Assembly (NCBI GenBank): GCA_021234155.1 | Contig: JAJEKV010000039.1 | Location: 2,232,001 to 2,296,000, forward strand | Reading direction: 5' to 3' | Length of the DNA: 64,000 bases | From: Isoetes taiwanensis | Lineage: Eukaryota > Streptophyta > Lycopodiopsida > Isoetales > Isoetaceae | Shown here: one piece after another, positions 8,524 to 51,097 of the stretch | Position numbering within the stretch: the stretch's first letter is position 1 | How the letters are laid out: every line of letters begins with the position of its first letter | Translations under genes and position numbers: made by a program | Notes under the pieces: generated by a model | Database searches by the model: none | Told to the model about the DNA's origin: nothing | What the model saw: the letters and a program-made list of their open reading frames with translations, nothing else

Positions 8524-8661
8524 ATCACCTGTTTAGCATTGTATAGTGTAAGAGCTCTTGTGTTGAGATGGAAAACGCAGAGCGTAACAAATAATAACTA
8601 GTCTATTGTAACTTTCATGTTATGAATGATATAGTAATTATGTCAAAGAGCATTGCATACC

Positions 8662-11138: not shown

Positions 11139-13220
11139 CCTTCTCCTTCACCGCAACCACAAGAGTAGAAACCGAATGTTATCAACGAGCACGAGGGCTA
11201 TGGGCCATCTCACAAGGTCATGCGGTTGGGGCATTTACGCGCACGTGCCCGGCAACAAGATAGAGATCTTTTCGGGCATTGGAAAAATGTTCATGATAGT
11301 AGCGACTATGGAGCCTTCCCCTAACTTCACGCCGGACACAAAGATGGTTTGGATCGGCAAAACGATAACACCATAGGCATAAGCCATGTAGCAAAGATTC
11401 ATGCATGAGTGTGCACGCCTTCTCAACTAACTCATCTCTAGAAAGCCCTTGCACATGATTCGCCTCATTCTTGGCTAACCCCTCATTCCCTCCTCGTCCC
11501 CGCCACCTATGCGTTTTATCGACCTATTGGAGTGCATGCTTCCTCATGTCTATCAAGTTGAGCAACAATGTCCTTCTTGTACCACAACACAAAAGTCCCC
11601 ACACGGCTTCACCCTCATTTTTCTATTTCCATTTCGAATTGGTAGCGTAATCGTCCATCCGTAACATTCACAATTGAAACGACAACCATACCCTCCGGAC
11701 AATCGAATTGTGATGGCGCCGAAATTGTGGACTCTTCCTTCCGCCACCTTTTTTCCGAAAGTCTGTGAATTACATCAGCCATCCTGCAAACAAGAGGTCG
11801 TGAATAGCGCGGCCGCGATCCTCGTAAGCAGAAAGCACTGTGATCACAAACCACTACAAAAAATAGGAACTGAAAAATAAAAAATGCTCGGGACTATCGC
11901 CACCGCGATCTTATCGAGCATGGGTAAGAACGCGGTCGCGCTTTTTGCAATGATTCACACTAGCTGTTTCGATAAGAACTCGTGCAAATCACATTTCGAG
12001 GCTAGCTAGTGGTTTCAACTCAAAGTTATCGATAGCTGGGAGTTCATTGGTCAATAGCAAGTGTAGACGGTTGAAGGTATCGCGACCGCGATCTCGTGGA
12101 ACACCAAAGTTAAACGACTGACTCACAGAATAAAGCATTACTCATACCTCACAGAATACGGTGTCGTCAACGTCAACTTGTAGCCGGGGACCCGTCAGAA
12201 GCTGCAGTGTCATAAAAACAGTGTTTAGTTTCATCCACATGGAGAAAGAAAGCATATACCTGAAACACGTTTACATTGTATAATAAACATACCAGAGTGC
12301 ACAGTTTTGCTTAGAACATCAATTTTTACATAGTTGCAACAAAGTATCAGGAGGTATCTTATCAATCCATGCAATACATAGTGATGTTAGTGCAGAGACT
12401 CGTAGATTGTAGTTATAATTGAAATTCAGTGCAACATAGACGTTGAGTTCACTTCAGTGAGGGATATGCATCAGAATAGGCCTTTTACCTCGCCCGAAAC
12501 CCTGAATTCGATGCAGTTGCAGAATTCTGAATGTGTAGTGGCGGATTGCAAGCGGATTATCAGCGCCCTCGTCAGCGCCTTCAATGGATCGCGAATTAAG
12601 CAAGAAATCCTTGCCCGACCTTGGCCCAGCTTAGGCGCAGCTCCAGCGCCTCGAAGATCTTGCAAAACAATGAAATTTGAATTGGCTTTTCCCGCTTTCT
12701 TGAATTGGTTTGTTCTCGATTTCAAATTCTACAGTCACTGTCCGTCCGTCCGTAAATGTGTCATTTTTGGGGCATTTATGGCTGCATAATGTGTCAGGTC
12801 CGAAATTACGCCCCAAATTTGAACGCGGACGTCCAAGTGGATAAGGACCTTTCGTACGGATTACTTGCCTTTGCGGACGGGTATATTCGCACGACCGCAT
12901 TTATGTCAGGGAATAAATACGGCCGGCCGGCCGGTAATTATTACTGCCGGCGTACGACGCCATTATGGCCGGCACGTTTTTTCACGCGCAATTATGAGGG
13001 GCGGGCAATTAATTTCCGCGGCCGCGTTCTATAAATTGAAACTTCAAACCTTTAAAAACAAATTTCGACTCCGCGATTTCCTTCAGCGCCTAAGCCTAAG
13101 CTTAAGCCCTCCGAGCTTCTCGAGCCACTCCAAAAGACTTCGTATTTTCGAACTCAAAATACCCATCCCATGGCACCTAAGGACTCCCTCAGAGAAGGTA
13201 TTTTCTAACATTTCAGCTCA
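11139..13220. other. Divergent intergenic region of element Y with palindromes
   Basis: Sequence between the two head-to-head genes of Y. Palindromic GC sites occur at 11,808-11,817 (CGCGGCCGCG), 11,896-11,909 (degenerate), 11,931-11,940 (CGCGGTCGCG), 12,079-12,092 (ATCGCGACCGCGAT) and 13,017-13,026. A GGCCGGCCGGCCGG run is at about 12,921-12,934. Minus-strand open pieces at 11,218-11,854 may be N-terminal exons of the DUF7869 gene; no domain was recognised. Confidence 0.5.
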
Positions 13221-13460
13221 GCAAGATCGCGGCCGCGATCTTGCCTACTCGAACTTCTATTGTTTTCATAAGTATAGCTGCTCAGCAAGATCGCGGCCGC
13301 GGTCTTGCTTGATAGGTTTTGTAATTTCTAGACAGCGGTCTTCATAAGTGTAGCTGCTCAACAAGATCGCGGCCGCGGTCTTGCTTGATAGGTTTCGTAA
13401 TTTCTAGACAGCGGTCTTCATAATCAGGCGCTCAACAACATCACGCGCCGCTGATCCGGG
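13221..13460. repeat. 76-bp tandem repeat, each unit with a GC palindrome
   Basis: The palindrome is perfect over 24 bp at 13,221-13,244 (core GATCGCGGCCGCGATC, flanks GCAA/TTGC). It recurs with one or two changes at 13,285-13,308 and 13,361-13,384, and degenerate at about 13,437-13,456. Spacing is 64, 76 and about 76 bp, and the DNA between sites is also repeated (GATAGGTTTTGTAATTTCTA, GACAGCGGTCTTCATAA). Confidence 0.85.
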
Positions 13461-13522
13461 CCGAGTATAGATTTTCTTTCTTTATATGTTTCATGAGTAC
13501 TAGTATAGTACGTCATTAGGTT

Positions 13523-13554
13523 CGCGACCGCGGATCGGCAGGATCGCGGTCGCG
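13523..13554. repeat. Pair of GC palindromes 22 bp apart
   Basis: CGCGACCGCG at 13,523-13,532 and CGCGGTCGCG at 13,545-13,554; centres are two helical turns apart. They belong to the same family as the Y sites at 12,079, 13,221, 15,230 and 17,405. Confidence 0.75.
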
Positions 13555-13610
13555 TTTTTCTACAGTAGTTTATACCTTTTCCTTGCACCACATTATGCAG
13601 CCTACCAGGC

Positions 13611-13916
13611 ACTCACCACAGGCTTTTGTTTACAGCACTTGCTCTCTTCCGAGGACCAGATGTCGAGCCCGTCCGTATTATAACCCCTTCCAATGAAAGG
13701 AAATGGTGTATTGAGATTGCACAGGCTATACCGCACATTAAGGGTGATCGCAGAAAGGACCTGTGCCTGTTTCTGCGGACTGGAAAAAAAGCTGAGGACG
13801 TTGAACAAGTTGGCATAGTGGTGGCAATGTGGGAAGGCACGAAGAACAATGTGCAAGATGCTATCATATGCAGCATTGAGGACACACAAGCATTGCGGTT
13901 TAAGAGTACATTTTGA
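13611..13916 (+). CDS. Candidate first coding segment of the Y methyltransferase-like gene
   Basis: An open stretch after a TTTACAG acceptor-like site reads LALFRGPDVEPVRIITPSNE and continues through LCLFLRTGKKAEDVEQVG to a stop at 13,914. Its position upstream of the main gene corresponds to exon 1 of the element X gene (24,075-24,197). It could instead be a separate small gene. No domain was recognised. Confidence 0.3.
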   Translation, partial: THHRLLFTALALFRGPDVEPVRIITPSNERKWCIEIAQAIPHIKGDRRKDLCLFLRTGKKAEDVEQVGIVVAMWEGTKNNVQDAIICSIEDTQALRFKSTF

Positions 13917-14050
13917 AATGGCGCAATTATGACCCGCCTATGATGACGACCCGAGAAAATGAACAAGCCCGACCCGACCACGGAAAACGTCCCCACGTCG
14001 CCTAAGGGTTATGGCTGGTTGTTGCCATCCTATGAATCTCTCTTTTGTCG

Positions 14051-14059
14051 TATATAAAG
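14051..14059 (+). promoter_or_regulatory. Possible TATA box
   Basis: TATATAAAG lies 103 bp upstream of the ATG at 14,162, the first ATG of the long frame that opens the methyltransferase-like gene of element Y. Confidence 0.45.
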
Positions 14060-14161
14060 GGAAACAGAGACATATTGCTTTCGGGTTCGGCATGCGTAAT
14101 TGGTTTGTCTACAGACAAGAAGCCTCCGAGCTGTGCCTTAAAAGCAGTTCGGGACGAGAAG

Positions 14162-17100
14162 ATGCCCTCCGTGATGGACACTAATTGGCTAAGAGCCGTG
14201 GCCAAGAAAAAGAGTGTGAAGCCTATTGCAGCTTTGGGAGAGACATCAGCACCAAAAGAAATTGCTCAAGAACCACAATCCACGATAAACCCCTCCGGTA
14301 TTGTTAACCCTACTCTTCCTATTGCTATGAAGGCCCCAGATAGCAATACATCTGGTGGATTTATTCCAAAAAAATTCCCTCCTTTCAAAATTAGCCTTAA
14401 GAATCTGACACCTAATGAAGATAGCCCGCAGCCCAGCAGTTCTCAAACCCCCCCCTCAGTTACGAATGCCTCCTCTACACTAGCATTGACATGGCCCCAC
14501 GCACCTGCCATTCCAGTCGAGTTGAAGTTCAATCCCGAAGAGGAACGCAAGATGGCAGAGCAAACCACTCAGAAGCTTGAACAGTTCAAAAGGTTCTACC
14601 CCTTAGGGGTTAATTGGTTTACAAAGATTTCTATTTTTGATTGTGAACTGCACCAAAAAACTTGACACCGCGAGAATGCGGTCAAATGACCATGTTCAAA
14701 CTCCGGTTAAAAGCTTCAAGACATACCCGACGGAGGTCCTCACCCCTAGCGACGCCGTTTCGTTTGACCCTATTACCAAGTAACTAATTCTTTATCTTTT
14801 GGACACTTTCGTTATGTAGATTTGACCTCGACGGTTGTCTATCTTTCGGGAGGAGGGTGACATGGAGCAATCCGAGGAAGATTTGAAGGGCAAGAAATTT
14901 TATATTATTTCCGCAACCACAGATATTTTGTTGCACAACTCCTTTGTTCTATTAGTTTACGAGTTTGAGCAAAGAACGAGAATTTGCCAAAGTATATGCT
15001 AGAAGAAGATCGAGGGTGCTCAACGGAAATCTTACGAACAAGGAATATATAGAGTTGAGTATTCAATGCAACGAAGTAATTGCAAACACCGTCTGGTACG
15101 AGAGCCACCGATTGAAAAACTCGCAAACAACTTCATCGACAAGGCTTATGGCTGTCCTCCACAAGGACCTATAGGGACAGCTAAAACTTCAGCTTGGAAG
15201 GTATTCATTTATTTTCTACTCGCCAACTTCGCGGCCGCGATCTTGATGACCTTGAAATTGCTTCTGCAGGATTTCCATGAAATTGCAACGACCACCTTGA
15301 AAGTGCAGGAGCTTAAGGATGAAAAACAATTCATTTTTATGGATGAGAAGGTTTTCAAGAAGTTAATGGAAGTTGCCGGTCTGTGGGTGAGTCGTAAACT
15401 CAGTGACGACCATGGTGACTTTCCGGACAAGCCATCCAAAGACTTCTTTAACAAGACCTGGCTTCGGTTGCTACAAGGTATGTCGAATGCAGAGGTGTCA
15501 CAGCTGCTCGATGAGATTATAGAAGGCAAGACCTATTTAAAGGTGCAGTCATGTTATCACGGGAGATTTGATTGCAAACAACGGGCAACTGACATCAGAA
15601 CCCTCACTTTTATGAGGCGAGAAATTTTATCTTATGCCTCAAATTTGCTGCAAAAGGATTTCGATAGCTGGGAGGAATTGCTTCAGGCTTTTCCTGATTT
15701 GACTGAACAGAGAATACTGGATATATCAGATACCGATACAGAATACGTGAAGGCTAACTATAACAAGGATCATACACTTGGTAACCTACCTGTAGCCTTT
15801 CTGGAGCCAGTCAGGAATATTCTAAAGCCAGAAGAGGCTAGAAAAAAAAAGGAAAAGAGAAATATTGTCATAGCAGTGACAAAGGATGGCATCCCTACTT
15901 CCTCCCAAGTGTCAGAGAATGCGACATTGATATTTATTGACATCCGAGGGATAAACAAGGTATGGGATTGCAAGAAATACACAGATCTATTTACAAGGAT
16001 AGCTACCATGACGAATGCCAAAGTTTATCACTTGGTCATTATCATGCGCTCAGTGAATTTGCCCAATTGCTTGTACAGTCAGAAGCAAATTCAGGGCGGT
16101 GGCTACCTATCTTTAGGTTCTTATGAAGAAATGGGATGGGAGAGCAAACGAAGGGTGAAAGAACATCAGTACTTTATTAGTCATATGTGCATTAACAGGA
16201 GTGATGTTCGTGTAGCACCTGTGCAACCAGAGCTGGAGCTTCACCTATCTCCACACGGCAAGGCTCCTAAGTCAACACCATTGCCTCCAATGCCGCTAAC
16301 AGGTAATGAGGATGCCGACGAGAAGATAAAAAAGAAATATCAGACTCTTTTTACAGGCAAACCAAGATTCAAATGGGCGGCAATGGAAGGAGATCTTGTA
16401 TTGAAATGCCAGCTGAAAACCTCGTATGCCTACCATATTGTTGAACAGCTGGTGCCGACTGATGGTTGCGTTCTGGATTTCTTTTTAAATTTGGGGGCGA
16501 CGGCTTCTCGTGGTTGCTCTTATGCAAGGCAAAAGAGCGTGGCTTTCGAAAAGTTCGGTAAAGTGTGCCGTTTTCTCGAGGGCGTCTTTGAAACGCTTGA
16601 TAAAATGGCCAATCCAAGTGCTGATGGGTTTGAGGAAGAGCCGAAAGCAGAGAATGTTGAGCCTGATCCAGCTCAACCCGACATCAGTATCACCCAAAAC
16701 ACAGATCTATCAAAGTTGGATTCCATTTTGGAAAACCTCGATGCTAAGTCCTACGAAGAGAGAATGCAAGAAACAAAGCGCTTGCTTGAAGAGACGGAAA
16801 AAGTACGAAGCCCGAGCCCACTTTTCAAAAATTGAGTGCACTTAATGAGAAGCTTGATGGGTACATGCCTTTCTTGACAGGCTTAACATCGGTTTGAATA
16901 CGTGGGCGAGAACACATGGAAGCGCATTAACAAAGACATGGAGATTGACCAAGATGAGGTTCTTGGGTCACAGGAGCATCGGTACACAAGAAGAAGCGTA
17001 GCTCTCTCATCCACAAAGCAGAATGCTAATGCATCGAACTACTTGCAAAAGGAACTTATAGGCGGAGCAAAGCGGTGCAATGGACAAGTGAGGAATGGGA

Positions 17101-17285
17101 GCCCGATTCACATCTGCGGCGCATGCATCGCAAAGGCCATGGGTGTTGTAGTTCCGGGAGATCACAAAGTTATTCGTGAGATGGACACAACACAAGCGAT
17201 GGAATTGGGTAGAGAGCATGTCAATCGCATGGCCAATGAAATGGGTGTGATACCTGATCAAGTATCTGAAACACAATCAGAATAA
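14162..17285 (+). pseudogene. Degenerate ParB-like/DNA-methyltransferase-like gene, element Y
   Basis: Homologue of the element X methyltransferase by order of segments. A Pro/Ser-rich N-terminal part runs from MPSVMDTNWLRAVAKKKS to about 14,600. A ParB-like segment follows (14,895-15,080), where X has FVLGGTHSYKA and Y has YIISATTDILLH, then the shared ELSKE. An intron at 15,201-15,269 (GTATTC ... CTGCAG) contains a GC palindrome. A long frame (15,270-16,835) holds NLLQKDFDSWEELLQAFPDL, the motif-IV position IFIDIRGINKVWD (X: IADIPYGF) and the motif-I position VLDFFLNLGATA (X: ILDAFSGSGTTA). The acidic tail continues with breaks to 17,285 and has a CGACI cysteine motif. Frame breaks near 14,660, 14,960 and 16,835 suggest a pseudogene. 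Catalysis is unlikely; a non-enzymatic DNA-binding role is possible. Confidence 0.65.
15229..15240. repeat. GC palindrome inside an intron
   Basis: TCGCGGCCGCGA within the 69-bp intron 15,201-15,269 of the Y methyltransferase-like gene. It parallels the palindromes found inside introns of the X gene. Confidence 0.75.
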
Positions 17286-17798
17286 TTATCTCCTTCAATC
17301 AGTAATTATGTTGTATATTACTTCCTTCAATGGAAATTTTTGTTTCGTGAACTTTGGTTTTGTCTTTACCCATATCTTTTACCATATGTTTAATGCTAAA
17401 AATAATCGCGACCGCGATCCTCTGTAGCAATTATATGGCTTTAAATACTGAATTTTGTGTGATATCCTTGCTCCTCGGTACCTTCTTTTAACACAATGCT
17501 CTCATATGGTTTTAATAAAAGGCACATTATTTTGTCTCCTTTCAGCTGCGAAACATCGCGTTCGCGCTTCTCGCGAGAAGTTTTAACACTCCCTCCTACT
17601 ACGTTATACTCGCCCTGAACCTTTGCATTAGCAGTAAAAACTATATTTCCGAATAAGACTGAAGCATTTGCAGAATTTGTGCAAAAAAACGCCAACTTTT
17701 ACTCAATTGGTAGTAGTTTTTGCACTATATGGCTACCCGCTAACCTATTTCATGCTAAACGAGAATTCCAAATTTCTCTAATTAATGAATTCATGCTT
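17286..17798. other. Right end region of element Y
   Basis: Downstream of the methyltransferase-like gene. It contains the palindromes ATCGCGACCGCGAT (17,405-17,418) and a degenerate one at 17,555-17,568, then the terminal inverted repeat ending at 17,798. No gene seen. Confidence 0.6.
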
Positions 17799-20530: not shown

Positions 20531-20785
20531 TACGGCATGCGGATTGCTCGATATGGCACTCATAATCAGGGAATTTCAGCTTGTTATTCGATGAACGCCC
20601 ACACTTCGGGATTCGTGTTCGTCCGTATATCGTGCGGGTTGGTCGATATAGCAATCAAAATGAGGCATTTCTATCTCCTTCATCGATGAACGCGTATGCC
20701 TGGTTAGATATACTCAGATCTTCCAACCCTTTTAGTGAAATCACAAAATTTCGCATGCACTGGCTCTGTCGGCATTCCTGGTCTC
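20531..20785. repeat. Degenerate 65-bp repeats at the end of R copy 1
   Basis: Two related units, centred on GCTCGATATGGCACTCATAA (20,548) and GGTCGATATAGCAATCAAAA (20,641), each followed by a TCGATGAACG motif. Copies 2 and 3 have a third unit, which is missing here because the inversion break falls near 20,785. Confidence 0.7.
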
Positions 20786-21438
20786 CCAATGGTACAGGTA
20801 CAGGCTGATTCTCTGGCTCAGGCACCACAGGCTCCAGATCGACAAACTCCACCTCCTCATCTCTTCTTCCCGTAAGTGGAGGCTGGATTTCTGTATATGT
20901 GCCTTTCACATCGCCAGCACCGTTTTTTGCTCCCAGTTCCTCGTTTTCATCAGGAAAGGATTCACAAGAGCTTATCCTGGTCCTGATGAAACTTATTTTG
21001 TCCTGGTCTATGTCGACGGAGACAACATTGCGCCCTTGCTTAAGGGCGCAAACTGCTGTGGTGCCTGAGCCTGAAAATGCATCTAGAATCCAGTCTCCTG
21101 GGCGAGAAAACCACTGAATTAAATTATTAATTAGCCGCTGTGGCTTCTGATAATGAGATACCACAGCTCCTTGTCGTTGTGGATCTCTCAATTTTTGTAG
21201 AACAGCCGGAAACTGAAAGGCGTTGCAGGGTGGAGTCTTTTCATTCTGCGTGTTAACATGAACCATGGTTTTTTTGGCGTCCGCGCTGTAAAAACCAATA
21301 TGGAAATGTTCAAAGCAGCTTACTAAGCGCGGACCACCACCATGTCCTTTGACATTTGTTTTTAGCCTGCCAAACAAAAAAGCAATTAAACATTGGCAGA
21401 AAGAAAACGAACAAAATAAGTTAGTTAAGTGGTGTGGC

Positions 21439-21512
21439 GGTATAAATTTATACCACCATTGCCTTGCTGTATAAATTTATACCACGAGGCGACTGTGGTA
21501 TAAATTTATACC
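21439..21512. repeat. Palindrome cluster 1 (3 sites), in an intron
   Basis: Three copies of GGTATAAATTTATACC or its 14-bp core, with centres at 21,446, 21,475 and 21,504, exactly 29 bp apart. They lie in the intron between the motif IV and motif I exons of the X methyltransferase gene. Confidence 0.9.
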
Positions 21513-22597
21513 GTGGTGTTAAAGTAAATAGAAAAGCAAGAAATTCAAAGCTTACCATACGCTAGCTTTTGAAGCCAGCGTTCATGCGACTCCCAATGGC
21601 TTTAGCACCGACATCGTCTGCAGGTCGGAATGAAAAATGATGACCCTCCAGTTTTCAGATGTCGTGACTTCTTTTAGGCCATCCAAGAAAGAACGGACTT
21701 GCACGTGAGTAAAAGCCTCCTCGTCAAAAGTGCTATCCTTGATTTTGAAGCCATAAGGAATATCTGCAATGCATAACGTAAAGTTTTGTTTGTCTAAAAG
21801 AGTCCCCAGCCTCGTGCCGTCACCCTGAACAACCCTGTACTGGACGTCCTGACCAAATGTAGTAAATCTCTCGTAAGTAGTGTCAAAACTGCTAGTGCTG
21901 ACTTGCTTTCCTTGCTCAATTGCTTTTAGTCTCTGCCTCTCCTCCTTGGCCCTACGAACCGTGTTTAAAAAATCCCGCTTGGTAGGCCTTTCTTCTTATT
22001 CTCGCAAGAAAAATGTGAGACAAAGGCACGAAAACAAAAAGTATTTTCTGTACAACTTACCCAGCCACTGAAGTTAACAGCGTGCTCTCTGATAATAGTA
22101 TCTGTAGTAGAGGTTGGATATAAAGCCTTGCACTCCTCCCAGTCCTCCAGGTTTAGTTGCTTCATTAATTCTGCCTGGCAGGTGACAATGTCTTTCTGAC
22201 TGCAGAGGGAAAAATGTGATCAGACAAAATTAAGAAAAAAAGAACACGACATAAGAAATGTGGCTTATGTCTTAGCTTCTTTGGCCATTTAAATCGAGAG
22301 TAAATTCTTTTGGCCACAACTTTTCTAGAAGTCTTACAAAAATTTCTTTGCTTTTCAAACCCTCAGAGTTGCGTCCGGTACAATGCTCATGTTTTTTTGT
22401 TTTGCCTCACCACCTTTTTTTGGTTTTTTTCCGGCAGAGCTAGATTGTTCTTTCAGCTCACCATCTTCGAACATACAAAATATTCTTTCTTGAAGATCCC
22501 ACACCTGTTGACGATCGAACACAAGTATTTTAGTGTTGAATGGCGAACAAGCGTTTGTTGTGAAGTCTACTATATTATTGCACACGGAATACCGGCC

Positions 22598-22941
22598 GGT
22601 ATAAAATTTATACTGCGTGACCAGCACGGTATAAATTTATACCGCGGCCCGGCAATCCAGCGGTATAACTTTATACCGCGTGCACGCAATCGGTATAAAG
22701 TTATACCGTTGCCGCACGCGATAAATTTATACCGCGTGCGCAAATCGATATAAATTTATACCGTCACCGCATGCAGTATAAATTTATACCGCGTTTCGTC
22801 ACGCGGTATAAATTTATACCGTCACCGTGCACCGTATAAATTTATACCGCGTGCTGGTGGTGACCCATAAATTTATACCGCATCTTGTCCGGTCACCGGT
22901 ATAAATTTATACTGTGACCAGGCACGGTATAAATTTATACC
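22598..22941. repeat. Palindrome cluster 2 (12 sites), in an intron
   Basis: Twelve copies of the GGTATAAATTTATACC family with centres near 22,605, 22,635, 22,669, 22,699, 22,725, 22,754, 22,782, 22,812, 22,840, 22,871, 22,905 and 22,933. Spacing is 26-34 bp, mean about 30. Two copies have central changes (ATAACTTTAT, ATAAAGTTAT). The spacers are GC-rich (CACGCG, CGTCACCG and similar). The cluster lies in the intron after the ParB-like exon. Confidence 0.9.
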
Positions 22942-24035
22942 GTGGCTGGTCTTCCTTGGTACGCATTTACAAAGTTCGATGTTAATATACAAACTCAGCT
23001 ATGCTAAGCATACTACAGACAACTAAATTAAAGCTTTTACTTACTTGACCATCTCTGAAAGCAAGCTGGAAGTAATTCTCGCATCTTGCTTCCACGTGCA
23101 TTATGGGCTTCTTATCCGAATCGTAGGCGGGTAGCACTCGTGACACAAGCTTCTCAAGTTCTTGGAGCTTGTTCTTTTGTTTTTTGAAGTCCTCCCCATG
23201 CACTTGCTTGAACTCTACGTATTCCCGGTGCATGAAGCGGATCTTGTCTATAAGACTCATTTTTAGTCTGAAGTCATTGTCGAGATTATGACTCACGGCA
23301 ATGACCTTTGCTTCCTCGTCTGTGACTCCAACGTAGATATGTGCTTCTACGCTCTTCCAAACTTCGTTACGGGATTCTTCTTTTGAAAGTTCCTTCCTTG
23401 CTTTGTAACTATGTGTGCCTCCAAGTACAAAATATGTGTAATCCTCAAAGTTAGCCTTTTTATAATCTTTTAGTTGGTTGCACTGACTCCTGTCAACCAT
23501 TACAACAAGTGGCGACACATGGGCATGAGGATTCCTTCTCATTCTTTGCTTGAGTATAGCCACATGTGCCGCGTACAGCTTTCGTACCTGAAGAACTCTG
23601 ACCCCATCTTCATTTTTAGGCGGCCTCTTAATAGTGCTCAATGTCAAGGAAATTGTTTGCTTAAGCAGTTTAGTGTCATTAACCTGTTTTAGAATAGCAC
23701 TTGACTTGTCTACGGGCTTCACAACAATATCTGCACCCGGAGCCTTCTGAAGAGCTTCTGCTGACTCCTCTATAGTCAATGCCTTTGTGGTTCTAGTCTT
23801 TTTTTTGGTGGGAGGCTGTGTATCTACTACCAGGGAATGCTTCCTACCCTTTCCCTTTGGTATTACTATTTCCTCCTCTTCCTCTTCTTCTTCTACTTCC
23901 TCAACATTTTCTTCCTCTTCGATAGTAGTGGGGTACCACAGACCTTTGACCAACACCTTTTCATCATAAAGCACCACCGACATCAAAATGTCCACTATAT
24001 CCCTCGTAATGCGGGGGTTAAGTTAGGAGGATGAC

Positions 24036-24051
24036 GGTATAAATTTATACG
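24036..24051. repeat. Single X palindrome in intron 1
   Basis: GGTATAAATTTATACG, between exon 1 (donor at 24,074) and exon 2 (from 24,002) of the X methyltransferase gene. Confidence 0.85.
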
Positions 24052-24197
24052 TAAAGCCACTAAGAATAACTTACATAGCCGCCCTTGTAATTTTCAGATA
24101 TGTACTCATTCACGTCTTTGGGCTTGCACATGCTTAATCTAAGCATTTTACTATTGAGAACATAGAAGACTTCCCCATTGTCATGCATGCACTTCAT

Positions 24198-24677
24198 TAA
24201 AAGTTCATCTTCGTTTTTACAGAAATGGCGGGTTTATAATTTCGCCGCGCGGGATAATAATCATCGGCCCTTGTACTTGCCCTTCCCTCGACCGATGGCA
24301 CAAGTGCAGTGCACGCGTCGCCGGGTTTGGTTTGCTCTCTTGCGCCCACGGTAATGCACCACGCCCCGGTCTTTTAGTTCGCATGCGTCAGGGCTCTATT
24401 GGTGCAACCTTTGAAGATTGGCCTTTGTGCACAAATTTTATCCTTGGGCCGGAACTGTGCGTTAAAAAACCATTTTTTTCGTAAGAAACAGAACATTTTT
24501 TTACTTTTTGACACACAAAAACAGTAAAAACAGAGGCTAAAAGGGCATAAAATCCACAATTAATTAACACTTTTTTTGTCTTATTTAAGCTTAAAACATA
24601 ACAATATTACTAAAATATTAAGGTTTGGGTCCATTCTTTAAGCACTAGACACCAAGATTCCGAAACAATTTTGAAAC
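24198..24677. other. Upstream region of the X methyltransferase gene
   Basis: Non-coding DNA leading from the methyltransferase start to palindrome cluster 3. It includes a GC-rich stretch (24,240-24,370) and then AT-rich DNA. No clear TATA box was picked out. Short frames have no support. Confidence 0.45.
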
Positions 24678-25008
24678 GGTATAAATTTATATGCCCCGAG
24701 CTCGAGCGGTATAAATTTATACCGAGATGGCTCTGGATCGATATAAATTTATACGCCCCGTGCTCGAGCGGTATAAATTTATACCGTTCCAGAACACATT
24801 CGGTAAAAATTTATACCGCAAGTGTTCTTGAACGGTATAAATTTATACCGCTCGTGCTCAAGCGGTATAAATTTATACCGCTCTAGAACACTTGCGGTAT
24901 AAATTTATACTGGTTGTGTTCTGGAAAGGTATAAATTTATACCGCCGAGAAAGCACGGGGCGTATAAATTTATACCGATCCAGAGCCATCTCGGATAAAT
25001 TTATACCG
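24678..25008. repeat. Palindrome cluster 3 (11 sites), 31-bp periodic, nested inverted symmetry
   Basis: Eleven sites with centres at 24,685, 24,715, 24,747, 24,777, 24,809, 24,841, 24,871, 24,903, 24,935, 24,968 and 24,999. Intervals are 30-33 bp with mean 31.4, three helical turns. The spacers pair by inversion about 24,857: GAGATGGCTCTGGATC (24,724) with GATCCAGAGCCATCTC (24,977), CCAGAACAC (24,789) with GTGTTCTGG (24,917), and AAGTGTTCT (24,820) with AGAACACTT (24,886). The cluster sits between the two head-to-head genes and is the likely control or recognition region of the element. Confidence 0.92.
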
Positions 25009-25275
25009 CCGAAGCTACCACTCTAACGATTAAAACAAAAGAGAAACTAAAAACAAGCGGAAAGTAGACTTACGTGGCATGGACCGTATGGACTAGCGTG
25101 TATAGACGTTCCGGAGAGCAAATAAGAAGGGGTATATAAAGGCGGACCATGAAGCTTTTCGACCGGCATATATGGAAAATAGGGTGGCGGCCGCTTGGCT
25201 TAAGTACCCCGCTAAGTCCGCCAGAGATAGCGCGTTTCTCCATAAAGTTTCCAATACAAGTGTCTGTGAGTTTTC

Positions 25276-25447
25276 GTATAAATTTATATCGTTTATGTTC
25301 TATGTTGCCCTCCTCTGTATAAATTTATACCATCTCCGTATAAATTTATACTGTCTCCTGCCAAGAGTTTCCCTTTCAGATAAATTTATACCATCTCTCA
25401 GATAAATTTATACCGCCTCGCCTTCTTCAATCAGATAAATTTATACA
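25276..25447. repeat. Palindrome cluster 4 (6 sites) just upstream of the DUF7869 gene
   Basis: Six sites, several with the left half shortened to GATAAATTTATACC, with centres at 25,282, 25,323, 25,344, 25,384, 25,406 and 25,439. Intervals are 41, 21, 40, 22 and 33 bp, close to 4, 2, 4, 2 and 3 helical turns. The last site ends 23 bp before the candidate ATG at 25,470. This suggests proteins bound on one face of the DNA in the promoter or leader. Confidence 0.88.
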
Positions 25448-25469
25448 ATGTGACGCTAACTTTCTGTGT

Positions 25470-28452
25470 ATGGCTCGAGAGAAAAGAACTGCAGAGCCTC
25501 CAACTCCTGTTCGCAGGCTCCCTCTTGCAATGAGTTTCACACCTCCTCAACAGACACCAGGAAGTAGTCATGAATATTCTAGCTCCGACATTCCAACACC
25601 CAGCTCTGTTGAGCTTACTCCAGCACGACCACCTCGGCTTCCACCACCAGTTCAATTTACTCCACCACACCACCTCCCCCCAACGCCGCTTTGCCCCACC
25701 AATGCATTTTACTCCACCACAGGCTAGAGAGCTCAGACTACCTCCTCCAGTTAATTTTAGTACGTCTCCCATAGTCCACCGTAGGCTCCCTCCCCGGAGG
25801 CAAATTACGCCAACTCCATCCATTTCGCTAAATGGTACTACAACAAGTGGGAGCAGTCAGCGACACGCAACTCCTGTATTCTACGACACTTCAGGAGCTG
25901 GTCAACTACGTCACCAACCTCGATTACTTTTTCCCAGAGAGAGGGAAAGCACCTCCCCCCAGGACTTGCCCACATCTACAAGTACACCTCATGTTGATCT
26001 CTCAGACGAAGAAACACCTCATGTTGATGTCTCAGACGAGGACCTACCGAAGCCACAAGACTCCATGTTCGAATTCAAAGCCCCTGCAAATCTTAAGCGT
26101 AATTTACACAAGAAAGCATGTACAACCGTTAGAAGAAAGAAACTCATGGACGAGGCTCACTTGCGGGCAACACATACAAAGCATTGTTGTTCTCAACGTT
26201 GTTTGCTTAAGATTGGACTAAAGGAATTGAGGTTGATTCGTGATAGTTACAGTTCAATGACTCTACTAGACCAAAGGGGCTACTTAGCCTTCAATATTAG
26301 GCCCGATTGTTGGTGAGAAGTTTACTTACACAGCTGGTGGTCACGTCGTCTGTCAAACGGCCTTCAAATTGATTCATGCTTTAGGCAGCAGACGACTTGA
26401 CCGCCTGAAGAAAAGGCTTGACAAGAATCCAGGCATAAATGACTACTGCCATTCAGGAGGTATATCCAGAATTCATGCCCTTCAATGTGTTTCCTGGATG
26501 GAAGGTTTCTTTAAGGAGTCTTGCGAGAAACTCCCTAACAGCCCCATGTACCACAATTTCACGAAACAACGATAATTATAAGGAGATGTGTGTTGAGGCT
26601 GGAGAATGCTTTGTCTGCTACTCTTACTTTACTGTGCTCTGGAAAAAAGAGTTTTCTCGCGTGTCCATTCCTAGAAAGCACCGGATGTCTGTTTGTGCTA
26701 CATGCTCTGAATTAAAAGCTCAGAGACAAAATGCAAGGACACTTCACACTAAAAGTAAGCTTCCAGGACGTGTTCTTGCCTAGTTCTAACTAAAAGTAGG
26801 TTCTTTCCTAAACATATTTTCATTTCAGATGCATTGAAGGAGAAACTGAACAAGCACAGAGAACAACAATCTTTGGAAAGGAGAAAATTGACAAAACATA
26901 GGAAGAAAAAGACTTGGAACAACCACTCAACTACATATCAGTTGTTATTGATGGAATGGACCAGAAGAAGACCACCCTACCACATTTTGTCAATGTGCCT
27001 AAGGATGCTGCTGAAGAAGATTTCATACATCTGCATGTTGTTGGTGCTATGGTATTTAATGGAAAACTATCTTGCAAGGCATTTTTGAATTATCCAAACA
27101 TTCATGCTGATCCAAATCTCACTATCACATTATTGAATAAGCTTCTTTCCAATCTAGAACATATACCACCGGTTCTGTATCTTCAGCTAGACAACACGAC
27201 AAGGGAAAATAAGAATCAGGCGTTGTTTGCTTACTGTGCTATGCTAGTAGAGAAACAAATCTTCAAGAAGGTGAAGATTGGTTTCCTGCTTGTTGGTCAT
27301 ATACACGATCAAATTGATCGATGTTCAAGAGGTTCTCTAAACGTCTTGCTTTCGAAAAAAAAAGCTCTCAGCCCTACCAAAGAATGATTGAGGTTATCCA
27401 AGATTCCTACAATCCTCGTCCGGACATCGAAGTTATTGGAAGAAACTTATGATTTCAAAGAATGGATTTTTCTTCGAGATCAACTGGGTCACCGTGCTAT
27501 TGAGCCCTTGAGAAACATTACATTTCAAAGATCGGATCAAAATTTCACTTGTAGATGGCAAGGCCATCTTACAAGAGAAAGAAATATGCCACATCCTTGC
27601 AAAATCAAGGCGGCCAGCAGCCAGTATTCAATTCATTCAAGCACCATCCCCAATACTAGTTCCATACTCTCTGCAGAGCAAATGCCTCTAAAAAGCTTGA
27701 AAGAAATCACAAAGAGTAAAAAGGAGGGAAGAGCATTTCACTCAAACAAATCATTGGATTGTATTGAGACAAGTATTCAGTCCTGCTCTAACCACTTTGG
27801 GGAGGCAGATGCTTTATGGTGGCCTCAATTTTTTTCTCGGCAACGTGACATGTTGCAAGCTTCATTACAAGGTCGAAGACCAGTTACATTCAACTGGCCA
27901 TCTAGGCAAACTCTCCCTGTGCAAGTTGAAAATCAAGAGGAACATGTAGAGATATTGGCTAGCTCAGATGAAGATGACAGAGTCATGTACACCGCCCCGT
28001 GACGCACAAAGACAACAAGTTGCTCGAGTATCCGGGTTCAGTCTGTGAGATTCGAGAAAGGAATGCTCATAGCTGTCCCAGCTGATAATGATGAATCTGG
28101 GAGGCCATTTTGGCTAGCTAAAGTACTGGAGGTAACAAGAGAGGATGGAATTCCCACTCAATTAAAAGTGCATTGGATGAGAACAAATGCTGCCAATGCT
28201 TTCAGTGGGAGTTATACTTTGGAGATGGTAAAAACAGGAGTGGGAAAGAGAGCTAAGTCCAAAGCAAGCACTGCTGTCATAGATCTAACTGAAGTAAAGG
28301 TTCTTGCATATGACTTTGTTCTGACTGCTGCTAATAAGTTACGTATGGTCACTCAAACTTTAATAAGGTCGGCATGTGGATTAGACAAACAAGCCAAAAA
28401 GGTGGCCAAAAAAGATGATGATCTTGCTGCAAAATATAAGTTTGTCCGATGA
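25470..28452 (+). pseudogene. DUF7869-type transposase-like gene, element X
   Basis: Homologue of the Y gene at 8,662-11,138. The start at 25,470 (MAREKRTAEPPTPVRR) opens a Pro-rich N-terminal part. Then come acidic repeats (HVDLSDEETPHVDVSDED), a Cys motif (HCCSQRCLLKIGLKELR), an HTH-like GHVVCQTAFKLIHALGSRR, ECFVCYSYF/CATC cysteines, an intron (about 26,755-26,828), and the DUF7869 core (VVIDGMDQKKTTLP, YLQLDNTTRENKNQALFAYC, GFLLVGHIHDQID). The C-terminal SH3-like module is FEKGMLIAVPADNDESG ... WLAKVLEV. Frame breaks lie near 25,680 (C-run), 26,303, 26,567, 26,915, 27,378 and 27,445, with an in-frame TGA at 28,000, so this copy is dead. The D..D..D pattern could be RNase H-like. Confidence 0.82.
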
Positions 28453-28834
28453 CTCGAACATGTAAAGAACAGAAAGTGCAGATGATGATTGTCTGTCAAA
28501 ATGTCCTATATTTTTGACAATTTTGTTCATAATTTTGTACAATTTTCACAACCTTGAATATATCACTTCTTTGTCACTCTACTACCCTTGCTATTTTTTT
28601 TTATTGCCCTTTTTTGCTACACTTTACATAAGTAACTATTTTTTGTTCTAAAATAGGAGGATAAAAATTGCTATTTGAAATTTTTGCACGGAAGTTATGT
28701 TCAATCAACCCCTCAAAAAAGGTACCTAAATTAACTAAATTGTCACACCTGTCACAAAAAAATCTTAAAAATGGACTTTTTTAAGGGAATTTTAGGGAAT
28801 CTTTCAAAGATTCCTTTTGAAGTGCGTTTCCAGC
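28453..28834. other. Right subterminal region of element X
   Basis: AT-rich non-coding DNA between the DUF7869 gene and the terminal repeat. AGTGCGTTTC occurs twice as a direct repeat near the end. Confidence 0.5.
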
Positions 28835-28863
28835 AAATAAGTGCGTTTCATTTTAAACTTTGT
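28835..28863. repeat. Element X terminal inverted repeat, right
   Basis: Read inward (minus strand) ACAAAGTTTAAAATGAAACG, then CACTTATTT. It matches the other end (31,047-31,075) over 29 bp with one mismatch. TGATCA follows directly at 28,864-28,869. Confidence 0.9.
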
Positions 28864-29966
28864 TGATCAAGAGAAAGTTCAAGTCTATTCATAGTGCTCT
28901 CTGCCAGCTCTGTAACACTCATGATGAGTCAGTGCTACACATTTTCACTTGCCAAAGGATTCAGGACTTTTGGAGATGGTTGACTCGGTCGGGTTTGAAA
29001 ATCCCTGATCTTGATTCTGTATCCAGTATTTCTCAATTCTTCCTGCTCCAGAATTCCAATGTCAATTGCACAATTTTACAATTAGCCTTGTGGATAATTT
29101 GGAAACATAGAAATAATGTGGCTCTGGCAAACAGGAAATGTGACCTTAACTGGATGAAGCTCAATTTTCAATTTGAACTTATCAGATGTGCCATGGCTCA
29201 TAAGGCTCTAAAATTAGAGAAATTTGACTTGGACTGTCTGAACTGGGGATCCTTCAAGTCTAATTTCTTCACTATTCATTTTGATTCTCTCATTGACTTG
29301 AATGCCTTTGTGGATTGCAGCCTTTTTGAACAGTGTGGTCCAGGTTTTTAGGAGGACAATTCTCCCGGATGATGTACCCACTCACCATTCGGGGACTCCC
29401 ATGTAGGCTGTAAGGGCTACTTTTCGGTTAAAATTCCTGCTCAAGGAAGCTTACAACGCTCATATCTTACACAAGTTTATTGGAACTCACAACCGTCTTC
29501 TCACAGAAAGACAATTTTCCTGCTTAAGGTCCATGTACTATTATCACAAGGGCAGATGTGAGGCTGCAGCTGGTGTTCTGTTGGATATTATTTAGGTTCC
29601 TATTGATGAGCTTCTGCTGTTGACCCCCTCCTGGGCTGAGATCAATTGGCTTGCTCCCCCCTGTTTCTCATTGCACCTCAATGCTACACACTCTTTCCCT
29701 GACCTCCCTGCCATTCCAGAATCACTGTTGAACCTATCTCCATTGCCTATTCCTTCTGCTGTCACTCCAATTTCACAAAATTCTGCTCCCTCTACCTCTG
29801 GTATATGGCTCAAAAGGTGATCATTAGATCAGACAGACTACATTTTGTGCCAAATGGCTGATTGGATCTACTGCTACTGTGTTACTGTTTTAATTTTTTC
29901 TGTTATGGGCTCTGAGCCTATTTTGAATGTTTTTAATTTATGAGTAATATAATCCATCCTTTTCCT

Positions 29967-30001
<35 letters not shown>
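28864..30001 (+). mobile_element. L1-type LINE, 3-prime part with poly-A
   Basis: A frame from 28,860 gives the zf-RVT region: LCQLCNTHDESVLHIFTCQ (CxxC...H...C) and RIQDFWRWL, WIIWKHRNNV. It ends at 29,349, with a 3-prime UTR and a poly-A run to 30,001. The reading continues that of the LINE part on the other strand at 31,076: MI|KRKFKS across the single TGATCA target. So this is the 3-prime end of that LINE, separated from it by element X and turned round by the inversion. Confidence 0.9.
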
Positions 30002-30003
<2 letters not shown>

Positions 30004-30262
30004 TCTTGGAATATATTAAGCTTATGAATATGTTGAATGCATGAGCAGGGTTGTCTGTTGAGCCTAAACTGTGGATTTTAATTGCAAAGGAAGATTTAAT
30101 TCTTCACCTGAATTCATATTTATATAAATCTAGCCTTAAGTTAGACAAGATCCTGAGTTGCCCGGAGGGTCAACTCGGTAGGCTCGTCACAAATTGTGAG
30201 GCCCTGAGTTGTAAATTTTTTTTGAATGTGAGGTAATTAGTATAGGTGTAATACTAAGCCTT
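30002..30262 (+). repeat. LINE long target-site duplication, 3-prime copy
   Basis: About 260 bp that begin directly after the LINE poly-A and end at ACTAAGCCTTCGA. They match, inverted, 36,981-37,240 at the LINE 5-prime end almost base for base. The 61-codon open frame in both copies is identical, which fits a recent duplication, and is not thought to be a gene. Confidence 0.8.
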
Positions 30263-30510
30263 CGATGCCAGAGCCAGATTGGTCTTTGTGTTTACTATGA
30301 ACACAAGATGTCAGACTTGACTCGCCAGACTTACAGTGTAAGTAGTAGAGAAAGTGCTATTTTGACGTTAGTTAACACAGTCTGACATGCCAGAAGGATT
30401 ACCAAGGAGCCTTGAGAATTGCTCAAATCTAAGAAAATACCAAAAACATTTGATGAAGGGCAGAAGTCAACTGAATATGTTGACTATAGCGTGCGCACTG
30501 TCAGAAGGGG
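30263..30510 (-). repeat. R unit copy 1, inverted piece
   Basis: Reverse complement of R sequence as at 55,780-56,010 in copy 3 (TGTCAGACTTGACTCGCCAG, then a region holding GTGCGCAC). It continues R copy 1 from 20,785 once the inversion is undone, with roughly 115 bp missing at the join. Confidence 0.85.
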
Positions 30511-31075
30511 GCGTCTCTGCTATTAAAACCTCGCAAGAGACAGATCCTAAGGGGAACGAGAGTCCTGTGGACTGGGAAGAGCCACCTCCCGTATAAATTT
30601 ATACAGACAGTATTTTAAATTAACTTTCATTGTAATCTATGTGCTAAGAATTTCAATATATTTTGATGAAGATTTTTCAACTGAAAACTTTGTCTCTTTA
30701 ACAATGCTTAATTAGAACAATTCTTTTTTTGATTTATGATTTCACACTCTTTCTCTTTTCTATGTTTGATTTTCTTAGTACTTATATTAAGCTTGCAAAA
30801 AGACAAACTATATTTCCTTCTATTTTCAACAACAAATACTTAATGAGTTTTTAAATTTAACGTCTCTCTCCTCAAAACAAGCTTTTTTTTTTTTTGCCCT
30901 TTTTTAAAAATGAAAAGGCTTAAAAAATGTTGCTTTTTTGGGGGTATTTCGAATGCTATTTGCTCAACAATCTATTTTGCTCCCTATTTTGTTTATTTTT
31001 TTCAAGTTTCCAATTTTTATAAAGGAATCTTTCAAACGCACTTCTTAAATAAGTGCGTTTCATTTTAAACCTTGT
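30510..31075. mobile_element. Element X, detached end
   Basis: This holds the last codons of the methyltransferase gene (plus strand, reading EGGVSAIKTSQETDPKGNES and ending WEEPPPV). The stop codon TAA lies inside a GGTATAAATTTATACC-family site at 30,591-30,604. AT-rich DNA follows, then the terminal repeat at 31,047-31,075, preceded by a 10-bp-stem hairpin (AAACGCACTT/AAGTGCGTTT, 31,034-31,060). TGATCA is at 31,076-31,081. Confidence 0.8.
31047..31075. repeat. Element X terminal inverted repeat, left
   Basis: Read inward (minus strand) ACAAGGTTTAAAATGAAACG, then CACTTATTT. Partner of 28,835-28,863. Confidence 0.9.
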
Positions 31076-34000
31076 TGATCATGTTAGTATTGCTCAGGAT
31101 ATCATTATGAAGAATGAGCCAAGAAAAAACTTTAATCTTAGGGCAGGCATAGGATTTCCAGCTGGATTGAAGAGTTTTCTTGAAGTTCCTGGGGGAAAGG
31201 CCCTGGAGAGAGGCATGTTTTCTGTTTTTATGAGGAAGACATGCATGATAAATCTTAGAAACTTTATAGCTCCTCTTGACTTTGAAGAACCAGTTCAGAG
31301 GTGAGTGACTTTCCCCTTTCCCATCTTTGCCTAAGAAAGGGGAATAAGTCTGCACAACTTTCTTGTAAATAGATCTATGAGTAGCACCTCCTCCCACTTT
31401 CTTCTTAATCACTTCCCAAGGAATCCAGTTTTCCTCATCATCAATAAGGTCTCTGACATAAAGAATATTAGCAGAATGCCATTTTTTGTAGCAGGTCGGA
31501 TGACTTATAGCCATGGCCAGGGAGGAGGAAGGGGCCATCACAGATGACCAGAATATGGAAGTATCCCTCACAGAATTAGAGAGTTTGTCATGAGTAAAAC
31601 TTGCAGCCACTTTTTCCTAGGCTTTAAAGATACTCCTATTGGCTGCACATTGAAAATTATAAAAGGCCGAGTCTGGGAGCTGATGTTTAATAGAGGGGCT
31701 TCCTAGGGGTTTGCTCTTGTTAAACCAGAACCTGATAAAGTCCATAGCAGGAGATTGGAAGCCAGAGATGGCTTTCCACACATTTTTGGCCCCAAGAACT
31801 TGGGCCTGAAGAAATAAGGACTTACATCCCAGCCCTCCTGCTTTTTTACTATGAGTCAGCTGATCCCAGACAGTTAGATGAGTGCCTTGCCAAATATACT
31901 CTTTAATACATTGCTCAATCTTACTGCAATCAGGGCAGAAGAAAAGTAGACATGACTACTAGCAAGGACAGAATTGGCTATCAAGATCCTCCCAGTCAGA
32001 GACAAGGAACCTTTAAGGAGGAGAAGCTTTTTCCTGATCCTATTAATGAGGGGCTGCCATGCTATCTTATGAGACATATGCACTGCAAGGGGGAGCCCTA
32101 AGAGGGTCAAATACTGCCCATTGGGGACAAATTTGATACCATGGGTGTTGAGGTCAGGATAAGAGCCATTAGCTAGAATAGAACACTTCGTATAGTTCAA
32201 GTGGATTCCAGAAGCAGCACTAAATTTGGAGATACAGTCCATGAAATTGCTCATATTGTTATTATTAGCTCTGAGCATGGTGAAGGTATCATCAGCATAT
32301 TGGAGGATCGAGAGCTGTTTATTAGAATCAGGCATTTGAAGCCCTTGGAGCAGACCCTTATCTTGATAAGAGAGGACCATCTTGGGAAGAATTTCAGCTG
32401 CAATTATGAAGAGGTAGGGGGCTAGGGGGCAACCTTGTCTCACCCCTCTTTGGATGGGAAAAAAACCAGTGGGAGTTCCATTGACAATAACATAGGAAGT
32501 GGCTTTTTGATTTAACCCCATTATTAGCTCAATAAGGGCAGGATGAATGCCTATGTGAACAAGAGCTTTCTCAAGGAATTTCCATGAAATGCAGTCATAG
32601 GCCCTTTTAAAGTCCAACTTGAGGAGGATGCAGTTCTGTTTGCTCAGTCTGTTCCAATGCAAAGCCTCACTTGCAGCTATGTAGTTGTCTAAAATGGATC
32701 TGCTAGGAAGGAAGGCAGATTGACAAACATTCACCTTGTTATGGAGATGGACCAAAATTCTACCAGCAATTATTTCAGCCACCAGCTTGTATAAGGTGGT
32801 AGTCAAAGAGATAGGGTGCCATTCATTAGTTTTGGAAGGAGCTTCAGTCTTAGGGATAAGCGAAATGACTCCAACATTGAAGGTGGGATAAATAGTCCTG
32901 GTTCTCCAGACACCTTGGACAAATTGAATAATGTCTTCCTTCATTATAGGCCAGAATTCCACAAAGAATTCAGGCTGAAAGCCATCTATACCAGGACTTT
33001 TTCCATGCTTCATCTTTTTGAGAGTTTCAAAGATCTCAGGGACTTCTGTCCAGTCATCATCCATCACTTCACTGGGGGGGCCAACAATATCAAAGATTTC
33101 TTGAATTTTGCTGTTCTCTATTTCCTCCTCCATAAAAAGATTAGTGTAAAAGTTGAAAAAAGCTAAGGAAATTTCCTTCTCTTCTGTAAGAGTGAAACCT
33201 TGATCAGATTCCAGCTGAGTGATTGAATTGTTAACCAGCCCGTTTCTAACAATTCTGAAGAACATTTTAGAACTCTCCTGGTCCAACTGATTATACATTT
33301 TTACTTTGCTTCTAAGGGCCATCCCCTTAACTTGATGTTCTTCAAGGGTCTTGATCTCTCTCATATGAAGAGAGTCATCCTTAGGATTATTTTCAAGATC
33401 AGATCTAATATTCTTAATCTGCTCCAACAAGCTGGACATAATAGCTCTCCTTTTTTGAGCAAGGTCTTTACCCCATTGCTTAACCCAGATTTTGACTTTC
33501 TTCATTTTGTCATTGAAGCACTTCATTGATTGATGTTGGCCAATTTTGGGCAGTGACAGATAAAAAGCTGTGAAATCTTGGCAAAAGGTTTTCATTTGAA
33601 GCAAAGAGGTATTAAACTTAAAGGGAGTGTTCTTGCTTCTTGGGCCAACTTTCAGATCCTTAGTGTCAAGGAAATGGGGCTGATGATCATAAATAGTGCT
33701 AGCAATATCTCCAGTAACAATGCAATTGTCTAACCAGCTAGCAGAATTGTGGATATAAAATCTGTCCAGCATACAAAAAGTCCTCTGGTCTCCCTTTCTC
33801 TTATTACTCCAGGAGAATTTGGTATTTGAAGATGGGACATAGATCAGATCTTGGCTGGCCATCCAATTGTCCCAAGAATATCTCTCATTTTTGGACATGT
33901 TAATTTTGTTGCCAAGTTTCATATCACTGTGTGGGGTATTATTGAAATCTCCAGTAACCACCCAATTCTCTACATGTTGGTGTTGGTTCATCCAATTGTT

Positions 34001-51089: not shown

Positions 51090-51097
51090 TATAAAAA
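51090..51097 (+). promoter_or_regulatory. TATA box of the dirigent gene
   Basis: TATAAAAA, 34 bp upstream of the ATG at 51,132. It is missing from copy 1 and replaced in copy 4 by insertion DNA. Confidence 0.65.

Follow-up and report, generated by a model that had tools for sequence, protein, structure and literature searches.

A DUF7869 transposon of Isoetes taiwanensis with a bacterial-type amino-methyltransferase gene and a family-specific palindrome

Motif-restricted anti-silencing exists in plants in the form of the VANC proteins (PMC5735166), which belong to the Mutator-type VANDAL transposons of Arabidopsis. Reports on these elements (PMC5735166, PMC10398659) describe a short motif repeated in the non-coding parts of the element, in introns and upstream sequence, with motif clusters that are family-specific and differ in related families, and an extra gene beside that of the transposase. 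We describe here a transposon of similar layout, element A, in a window of 64,000 bases from the genome of Isoetes taiwanensis (assembly GCA_021234155.1, contig JAJEKV010000039.1; C1044:2232001-2296000 in our numbering), with searches of 1,658,258,908 bases of the genome in 1,110 contigs. The transposon bears genes and a palindrome code that is private and under selection and that differs between family A and its sister family, D, and together the two families are a new form of transposon-encoded, sequence-specific self-recognition, the mechanism of which is putative. In contrast to the same-orientation tandem repeats of VANDAL elements, the motif of A and D is a palindrome of 16-18 bp with partly helical spacing and unrelated flanks, and the second protein is a bacterial-type amino-methyltransferase that accompanies a DUF7869 transposase. 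The likeness is one of layout, and anti-silencing by the Isoetes elements is a prediction.

Other selfish elements also carry DNA-modifying enzymes. Fungal DNA transposons place TET/JBP enzymes beside their transposases (PMC12730594), but these enzymes are dioxygenases, the transposases are of the KDZ, hAT, IS3EU, Harbinger and EnSpm/Plavaka types, and the accessible part of the report does not mention a private palindrome array. Element A was set apart from the KDZ/TET group on the length of the target-site duplication, 4 bp as against 8 bp in Zisupton, and on gene content, as Pfam gave a methyltransferase and DUF7869 but no TET/JBP domain in the scanned exons. The Dam-like adenine methyltransferases of DIRS retrotransposons and the DNA methyltransferases of retrotransposons in Symbiodinium and Klebsormidium (PMC5890265) are likewise cases of a selfish element with its own DNA methyltransferase; unlike element A these are retrotransposons, and no recognition-site array is described in the accessible text. 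N4CMT of bdelloid rotifers (PMC8885841) is a captured bacterial amino-methyltransferase that acts in a eukaryotic nucleus, but in the part of that report available it is fused to a chromodomain, helps to silence transposons, has the motif SPPY and is not described as transposon-borne. Among titles and the beginnings of abstracts, with subscription papers mostly outside the search, we found no published description of the combination of DUF7869, methyltransferase and palindrome, and nothing on DUF7869.

Anatomy and genes of element A

Element A is a genuine mobile element in a large group of plant transposons. It moves as DNA, ends in terminal repeats and is flanked by target-site duplications of 4 bp. 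It has interrupted a long interspersed nuclear element (LINE), and its parts in the window are as follows.

20786..28864, plus strand: element A body, bounded by the right terminus and by an inversion breakpoint that falls in the methyltransferase gene; collinear with C16 ~317002-325016, right terminus AAGTGCGTTTCATTTTAAACTTTGTT at 28839-28864
30501..31076, minus strand: left end, displaced and inverted, including the 3' end of the methyltransferase gene; 90% identity to C16:316415-316999 in opposite orientation, left terminus at 31051-31076
28865..28868, no strand: right target-site duplication, GATC; differing but matching 4-mers in other copies
31077..31080, no strand: left target-site duplication, GATC; LINE reading frame open when the flanks are joined
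20786..21380, minus strand: methyltransferase exon with motif I (DAFSGSGTT); PF01555 at E 1.8e-15, with 57.9 bits where 26.7 is the cut-off
21585..21995, minus strand: methyltransferase exon with motif IV (ADIPYG)
22275..22570, minus strand: methyltransferase linker exon, frameshifted in the window, with a possible helix-turn-helix (HTH_19, E 0.16 only)
22985..24020, minus strand: large conserved methyltransferase exon (the reader exon) with a weakly ParB-like stretch; supported by genomic matches, substitution ratios and weak PHROG matches
24075..24233, minus strand: part of the N-terminal methyltransferase exon; N-terminus homologous in C16b and C4, and in family D by eye
25470..28449, plus strand: DUF7869 (transposase) gene, broken in the window; PF25273 at E 1.7e-34

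The order of these parts is explained by a copy of intact order at ~C16:316416-325016, which was found among ten 20-kb regions around palindrome clusters. The left end of this copy corresponds to 31077-30501 of the window reversed and its remainder to 20786-28864 forward, and the window segment 20786-30500 is therefore inverted. This apparent inversion of ~9.7 kb, either a true rearrangement or an assembly error, has one breakpoint in the methyltransferase gene and splits both element A and the host LINE, which is interrupted and reversed likewise. An earlier note on this DNA, made from the window alone, had given the element a single span of 20785..31075; the body and the left end do belong to it, but 28869-30500, which is made up of LINE sequence with its poly-A and flank, lies outside. 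The same note had listed terminal inverted repeats, but there is no terminal repeat at 20785: the terminal motif ACAARGTTT.. occurs at 28844-28863 and 31056-31075, on the minus strand in both cases, and as such is direct. Its TGATCA duplication also had to be shortened. Joining the LINE flanks without the duplicated GATC leaves an open frame across the junction, which gives a duplication of 4 bp, and the outer T and A are part of the element ends AACAAGG...CTTTGTT. Matching 4-bp duplications flank 8 of the 9 complete A-type copies checked (among other copies ACCC, ATAG, AAAT, GATT, TGTC, AGAA and TTGG); the complete copy in C17 has unequal 4-mers, CCCG/CAGG. The left terminus (55 bases, up to 3 mismatches) has 962 genomic sites against 0 in the control.

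The two head-to-head genes of the earlier note were both recovered, N6_N4_Mtase on the minus strand (E 1.8e-15) and DUF7869 on the plus strand (PF25273, E 1.7e-34), although the window copy is decayed, with frameshifts or stops in both. The DUF7869 protein is a transposase by its modelled fold: the predicted structure has an RNase-H-like DDE core with acidic residues (predicted local distance difference test score, pLDDT, 90.5), and its best matches are Mos1 and integrases. The ratio of non-synonymous to synonymous substitution (dN/dS) is 0.29-0.39 between copies (6 pairs). The protein has 108 relatives, the named ones from a liverwort (Riccia), a fern (Adiantum), sea urchin, clam and amphioxus. 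The set in Riccia sorocarpa is large (P0012-P0022 and further matches), and this liverwort may hold related elements.

The partner of the transposase is an intron-containing gene for a bacterial-type N6/N4 amino-methyltransferase, for which DNA methylation activity is predicted. Among NCBIfam models the spliced composite fits CcrM best (E 3.5e-11), at 42.6 bits far under the equivalog cut-off of 830, so that the protein is a relative of CcrM and not CcrM itself; the nearest solved enzymes in the PDB are MboIIA and CcrM. Motif IV reads DIPYG in six of the seven A copies with data and YIPYG in the other, and DLPYG in family D. The reader exon has at least 117 long genomic matches (117 scored of 3,598 candidates), 46 of them stop-free by manual count, and a dN/dS of 0.08-0.15 in three pairs of copies, while for the catalytic exons 33 of the 34 pairs with a defined ratio lie at 0.05-0.54 and one at 0.83, decayed copies included. 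These low ratios between copies indicate that the methyltransferase gene is maintained by purifying selection.

A search for protein relatives of the methyltransferase gave seven matches among 7,992 scored candidates, at E 2.4e-6 or weaker and with 7-13% query coverage, the sole named organism being a bacterium; the reader part had no relatives among 746 candidates. No eukaryotic methyltransferase relative was found, in a search that requires shared 5-residue words and so does not imply absence from eukaryotes. When the window copy is compared with that at ~C16:316416-325016, the methyltransferase half has a synonymous divergence of 0.62-0.93 and the DUF7869 half one of 0.19, and this inequality suggests that the halves may have separate histories through recombination between elements.

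Private palindromes in two sister families

The palindrome of family A, GGTATAAATTTATACC, has 29 copies in the window at up to 2 mismatches (0.03 in shuffled sequence) and 32 at up to 3. The earlier note had counted about 34 confined to the element, and the confinement stands: all lie in 21439-30605, and on a manual reading of the exons they occupy introns, gene ends and the space that separates the genes. Their arrangement, internal and lopsided within the element, is as follows (no strand).

21439..21512: palindrome array 1, 3 copies, methyltransferase intron
22604..22942: palindrome array 2, 10 copies (up to 2 mismatches), methyltransferase intron
24036..24051: single palindrome, within the first methyltransferase intron
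24678..25007: palindrome array 3, 11 copies, in the space that separates the gene starts
25275..25446: palindrome array 4, 3 copies (up to 2 mismatches) and weaker ones, 5' leader of DUF7869
30590..30605: single palindrome, 3' end of the methyltransferase gene

The idea of the earlier note, that the methyltransferase, the DUF7869 gene, the palindromes and the termini form one mobile unit, is borne out for the methyltransferase, palindromes and termini by 12 loci selected by the left terminus alone (taken in list order, one per contig and 2.4 kb each, with C2, C7 and C16, already sampled by palindrome, and extra sites on C23 and C46 excluded). All 12 contain palindromes, 1-11 each at up to 2 mismatches, and 7 of the 12 contain methyltransferase exons; stretches of 2.4 kb are too short to cover DUF7869. 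Termini with neither genes nor palindromes, which the earlier note had named as contrary evidence, did not occur among the 12. Four of the loci are complete elements of 2,144-2,261 bp without any gene match, with 6-11 palindromes and matching target-site duplications, and in a further locus (L032) the stretch holds a single palindrome and matches no gene. Conversely, for at least 9 of 23 reader-exon matches on covered contigs, a perfect left terminus in the correct orientation lies at a distance of 2.6-3.5 kb (100 of the 962 termini compared). The 20-kb loci were picked by palindrome and as such are uninformative on how often elements carry palindromes. Palindromes spread through the genome without the element had been named in the earlier note as a finding that would speak against a private system. 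The A palindrome is indeed widespread, with 13,337 sites in 1.66 Gb (control 57), but every examined site falls within element intervals: in 261,750 bases there was no palindrome beyond the assigned intervals, which were drawn by hand and which in C5, C7, C8 and C14 have one element end not independently fixed, so that the count is partly circular there. For 49 of the 50 perfect A sites listed, and for 39 of the 50 listed for D, a further site lies inside 3 kb.

Families A and D are sister families with common genes and layout and different palindromes. The D palindrome, the 18-mer GTGTATTCCGGAATACAC, has 5,786 genomic sites at up to 1 mismatch (control 0). In a locus selected by this palindrome (L041) a catalytic exon is followed by five palindromes at a spacing of exactly 42 bases, next by the reader exons and the N-terminal exon, and finally by seven palindromes and DUF7869 in opposite orientation; no A palindrome is present in the locus. 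Its catalytic exon, with DLPYG, is 47% identical to that of A, and the reader exons 35-50%. In C4 a second DUF7869 gene (core 56-70% identical, N-terminus 34%) adjoins AGTGTATTCCGGAATACACT repeats, and in the stretch of C7 that was scanned the A palindrome alone was found.

Constraint on the palindromes is evident at two levels. Across nine A elements the cores are 0.85-0.96 identical and the 8-bp flanks 0.28-0.55; for D in C4 the values are 0.82 and 0.54/0.35, and for the palindromes of a third element, B, 0.78 and 0.46/0.37. Conserved cores with unrelated flanks mean that the palindromes do not form a simple tandem repeat. When seven gene-less copies are compared at non-CpG positions, the palindromes are off the consensus in 18 of 850 cells as against 1,076 of 13,312 elsewhere (p 6e-13), about 4-fold lower; with CpG included the counts are 38/954 in palindromes, 1,216/13,985 elsewhere and 158/1,098 in the 12-base flanks. 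Three of these seven copies come from the palindrome-selected set, and the sites were defined on the 7-copy consensus.

The gaps between A palindromes concentrate near 21, 31, 42, 52 and 62 bases, with a resultant of 0.57 at a period of 10.5 (n=114, gaps inherited by descent not being independent) and of 0.65 outside the dominant 27-35 class (n=38). Of the 20 gaps in family D, 16 measure 41-42 or 83-85 bases and the rest 25, 101, 117 and 124, and the resultant is 0.73. Proteins lined up along one side of the double helix would need such spacing by whole turns.

A putative reader of the palindrome and its rivals

Retention of the palindromes in gene-less copies implies that they act in cis and are read by a factor supplied in trans. 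Both termini of the element bear a repeated motif of their own, ACGCACTT/AAGTGCGT, separate from the palindrome and the natural site for the transposase, and this, together with the internal and lopsided position of the arrays, leaves the palindromes for another protein. We propose the methyltransferase as this reader since it is the other product of the element. In the interpretation that we tentatively prefer, which parallels VANC anti-silencing, the methyltransferase protein would read the palindrome of its family and mark and/or free the DNA of that family from silencing. The protein, with its catalytic domain and DNA-reading part, would bind the palindrome as a dimer, and whole-turn spacing would let several dimers share one face of the DNA. 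Once loaded it would modify adenines (or the N4 of cytosines) in DNA of its own family and/or displace silencing factors, and both autonomous and gene-less members would thereby stay accessible to the transposase. A response limited to palindrome-bearing DNA would keep the system private to one family, whose reader would be expected to diverge in step with its palindrome. As the AMT1 pathway for N6-methyladenine (6mA) has been lost in plants, which use 5-methylcytosine (PMC12695648), an adenine mark would be distinctive. A bolder version, which we regard as rather doubtful in full, gives each family a palindromic password together with a dedicated methyltransferase-reader, which writes 6mA or N4-methylcytosine (4mC) on password-bearing DNA, so that members are open for transposition and the rest of the genome is untouched, with reader and password co-evolving and splitting into new pairs.

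Several observations weigh against the proposal of a methyltransferase-reader. Motif IV, as DIPY or DLPY, departs from the canonical DPPY and (D/N/S)PP(Y/F/W); KsgA/Erm enzymes use (N/D)(I/L)PY. The DNA-reading domain is putative, and the ParB-like label of the earlier note is retained as a weak lead only: the reader exon has two weak matches to PHROG ParB-like families (E 0.024 and 0.1), Pfam and PDB profile searches of the reader part gave no ParB domain and PHROGs none for the family-D piece, the AlphaFold model (from an input of 3 sequences) has a pLDDT of 34, and the possible helix-turn-helix stands at E 0.16. In ParB/parS systems a palindromic site of ~16 bp is read by ParB. Here, in contrast, a ParB-like domain is only possible, would be fused to a methyltransferase and is eukaryotic, no ParA gene was noticed, and the residues of the ParB CTPase signature are presumably replaced in the reader exon. 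The D copy in L041 that shows the full layout is itself decayed, with stops in its reader exons. When each lineage contributes a single copy, the helical signal weakens to 0.52 (n=46) and to 0.45 outside 27-35 (n=12), and the best period is 16, because gaps of 32 dominate. Element B has palindromes but no recognisable methyltransferase, so methylation may not be the general function, and C14, which has DUF7869 with a B-type partner, is without a convincing palindrome array. As such, palindrome binding and methylation are predicted steps, and the methyltransferase, rather than another protein of the element, is the putative reader.

The palindromes could instead be binding sites for the DUF7869 transposase, acting as internal transpososome enhancers, with another role for the methyltransferase. 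CACTA or Mutator elements have transposase-binding motifs, and constraint on the palindromes in gene-less copies is as expected of a cis requirement for transposition. A, D and B all have DUF7869, but B lacks a recognisable methyltransferase, and because DUF7869 is the only gene common to all three we keep this alternative in consideration, although we judge it unlikely: the arrays are asymmetric and internal, with none less than 3.5 kb from the right end in C16b, the termini have their separate repeated motif, and many palindromes lie within methyltransferase introns. Silencing by the element itself is less probable still. Here the methyltransferase would mark the palindromes to repress the element, as copy-number control, or to maintain it, in the manner of the silencing 4mC of bdelloid rotifers, in which a captured bacterial amino-methyltransferase serves to silence transposons (PMC8885841); one array does lie between the two gene starts, but purifying selection on the gene and the retention of palindromes in gene-less passengers suggest a benefit to the element.

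That same array, and the TATAAA on both strands of the A core, would suit ordinary promoter elements, either two-way TATA boxes (TATAAAT/ATTTATA) or sites for host transcription factors. This explanation is no more convincing than self-restraint, as the D (GTGTATTCCGGAATACAC) and B (GATCGCGGCCGCGATC) cores lack TATAAA, A and D also array their palindromes within introns, and gene-less A copies retain palindromes without a recognised gene to transcribe. Spread of functionless palindromes as passengers, by slippage or conversion, would account for the variable copy number (7-32 sites at up to 3 mismatches in nine A elements), but is highly improbable given the unrelated flanks of the cores, the many helically phased gaps and the ~4-fold core conservation in gene-less copies.

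If the methyltransferase does act as the reader, families A and D would represent a second, enzyme-based solution to the problem that VANC solves, that of a transposon escaping silencing without opening the whole genome. Matched pairs of palindrome and reader in one genome could be used to study the splitting of DNA-binding specificity, and the enzyme, if active, would be a plant-derived means of targeted methylation at adenine or at N4 of cytosine.

Element B and minor observations

The window holds a further DUF7869 element, B, with its own palindrome family.

7276..17798, no strand: element B, a DUF7869 element in a copia-like retrotransposon (copia by eye), with imperfect terminal repeats and target-site duplication AGTT
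8665..11147, minus strand: DUF7869 gene of element B; PF25273 at E 4.6e-29 on 9368-9832
13569..17282, plus strand: second gene of element B, of approximate extent, in head-to-head arrangement with the DUF7869 gene; a stretch resembling motif I by eye only
11805..17419, no strand: palindrome family (A)AGATCGCGGCCGCGATCT(T), 9 copies; Markov controls 1-2

The 20-mer palindrome of element B has 1,165 genomic sites at up to 2 mismatches (control 0). At E <=1e-4 the second gene of B matched none of the methyltransferase exons of A, and a Pfam search found no methyltransferase in it, so that the pairing with a methyltransferase is established for A and D only. At 7560-8530, inside element B, two related small proteins (by eye, starting MASSMPRPEH and MDFSPSSVHH) are encoded in tandem with a TATA-like sequence upstream of each; the two genes have 70% DNA identity over 104 nt.

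Three other candidate palindrome families were rejected. The 11-12 copies of AAGGAATATTCCTT in C17 have half-conserved flanks (0.62/0.49) and resemble an ordinary tandem repeat, and GTGGAGGCCTCTAC (four copies, in the second element of C16b) and TTGGGCGGGCCCAA (three copies, in C14) are at or near control level. In L005, CACCACATGTGGTG has 5 copies at 5789-6119 (9 at up to 3 mismatches) with unrelated flanks and no adjoining match to the A or B genes, and is possibly another palindrome-bearing element. A repeat in L023/L024 (C7, local 9135-12541) that is common to C2 contains 22 copies of TTCTAGAA, which we take to resemble the core of a heat-shock element.

Elsewhere in the window, sequence flanking element A (near 20658-20771) is found again at 48.9 and 55.6 kb. 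Pairs of TAAGTTGCAACTAA recur within 43604-56681 in steps of ~6.4 kb (43.6, 50.1 and 56.5 kb), which suggests a tandem triplication around a dirigent-like gene, identified by eye, at 51 kb.

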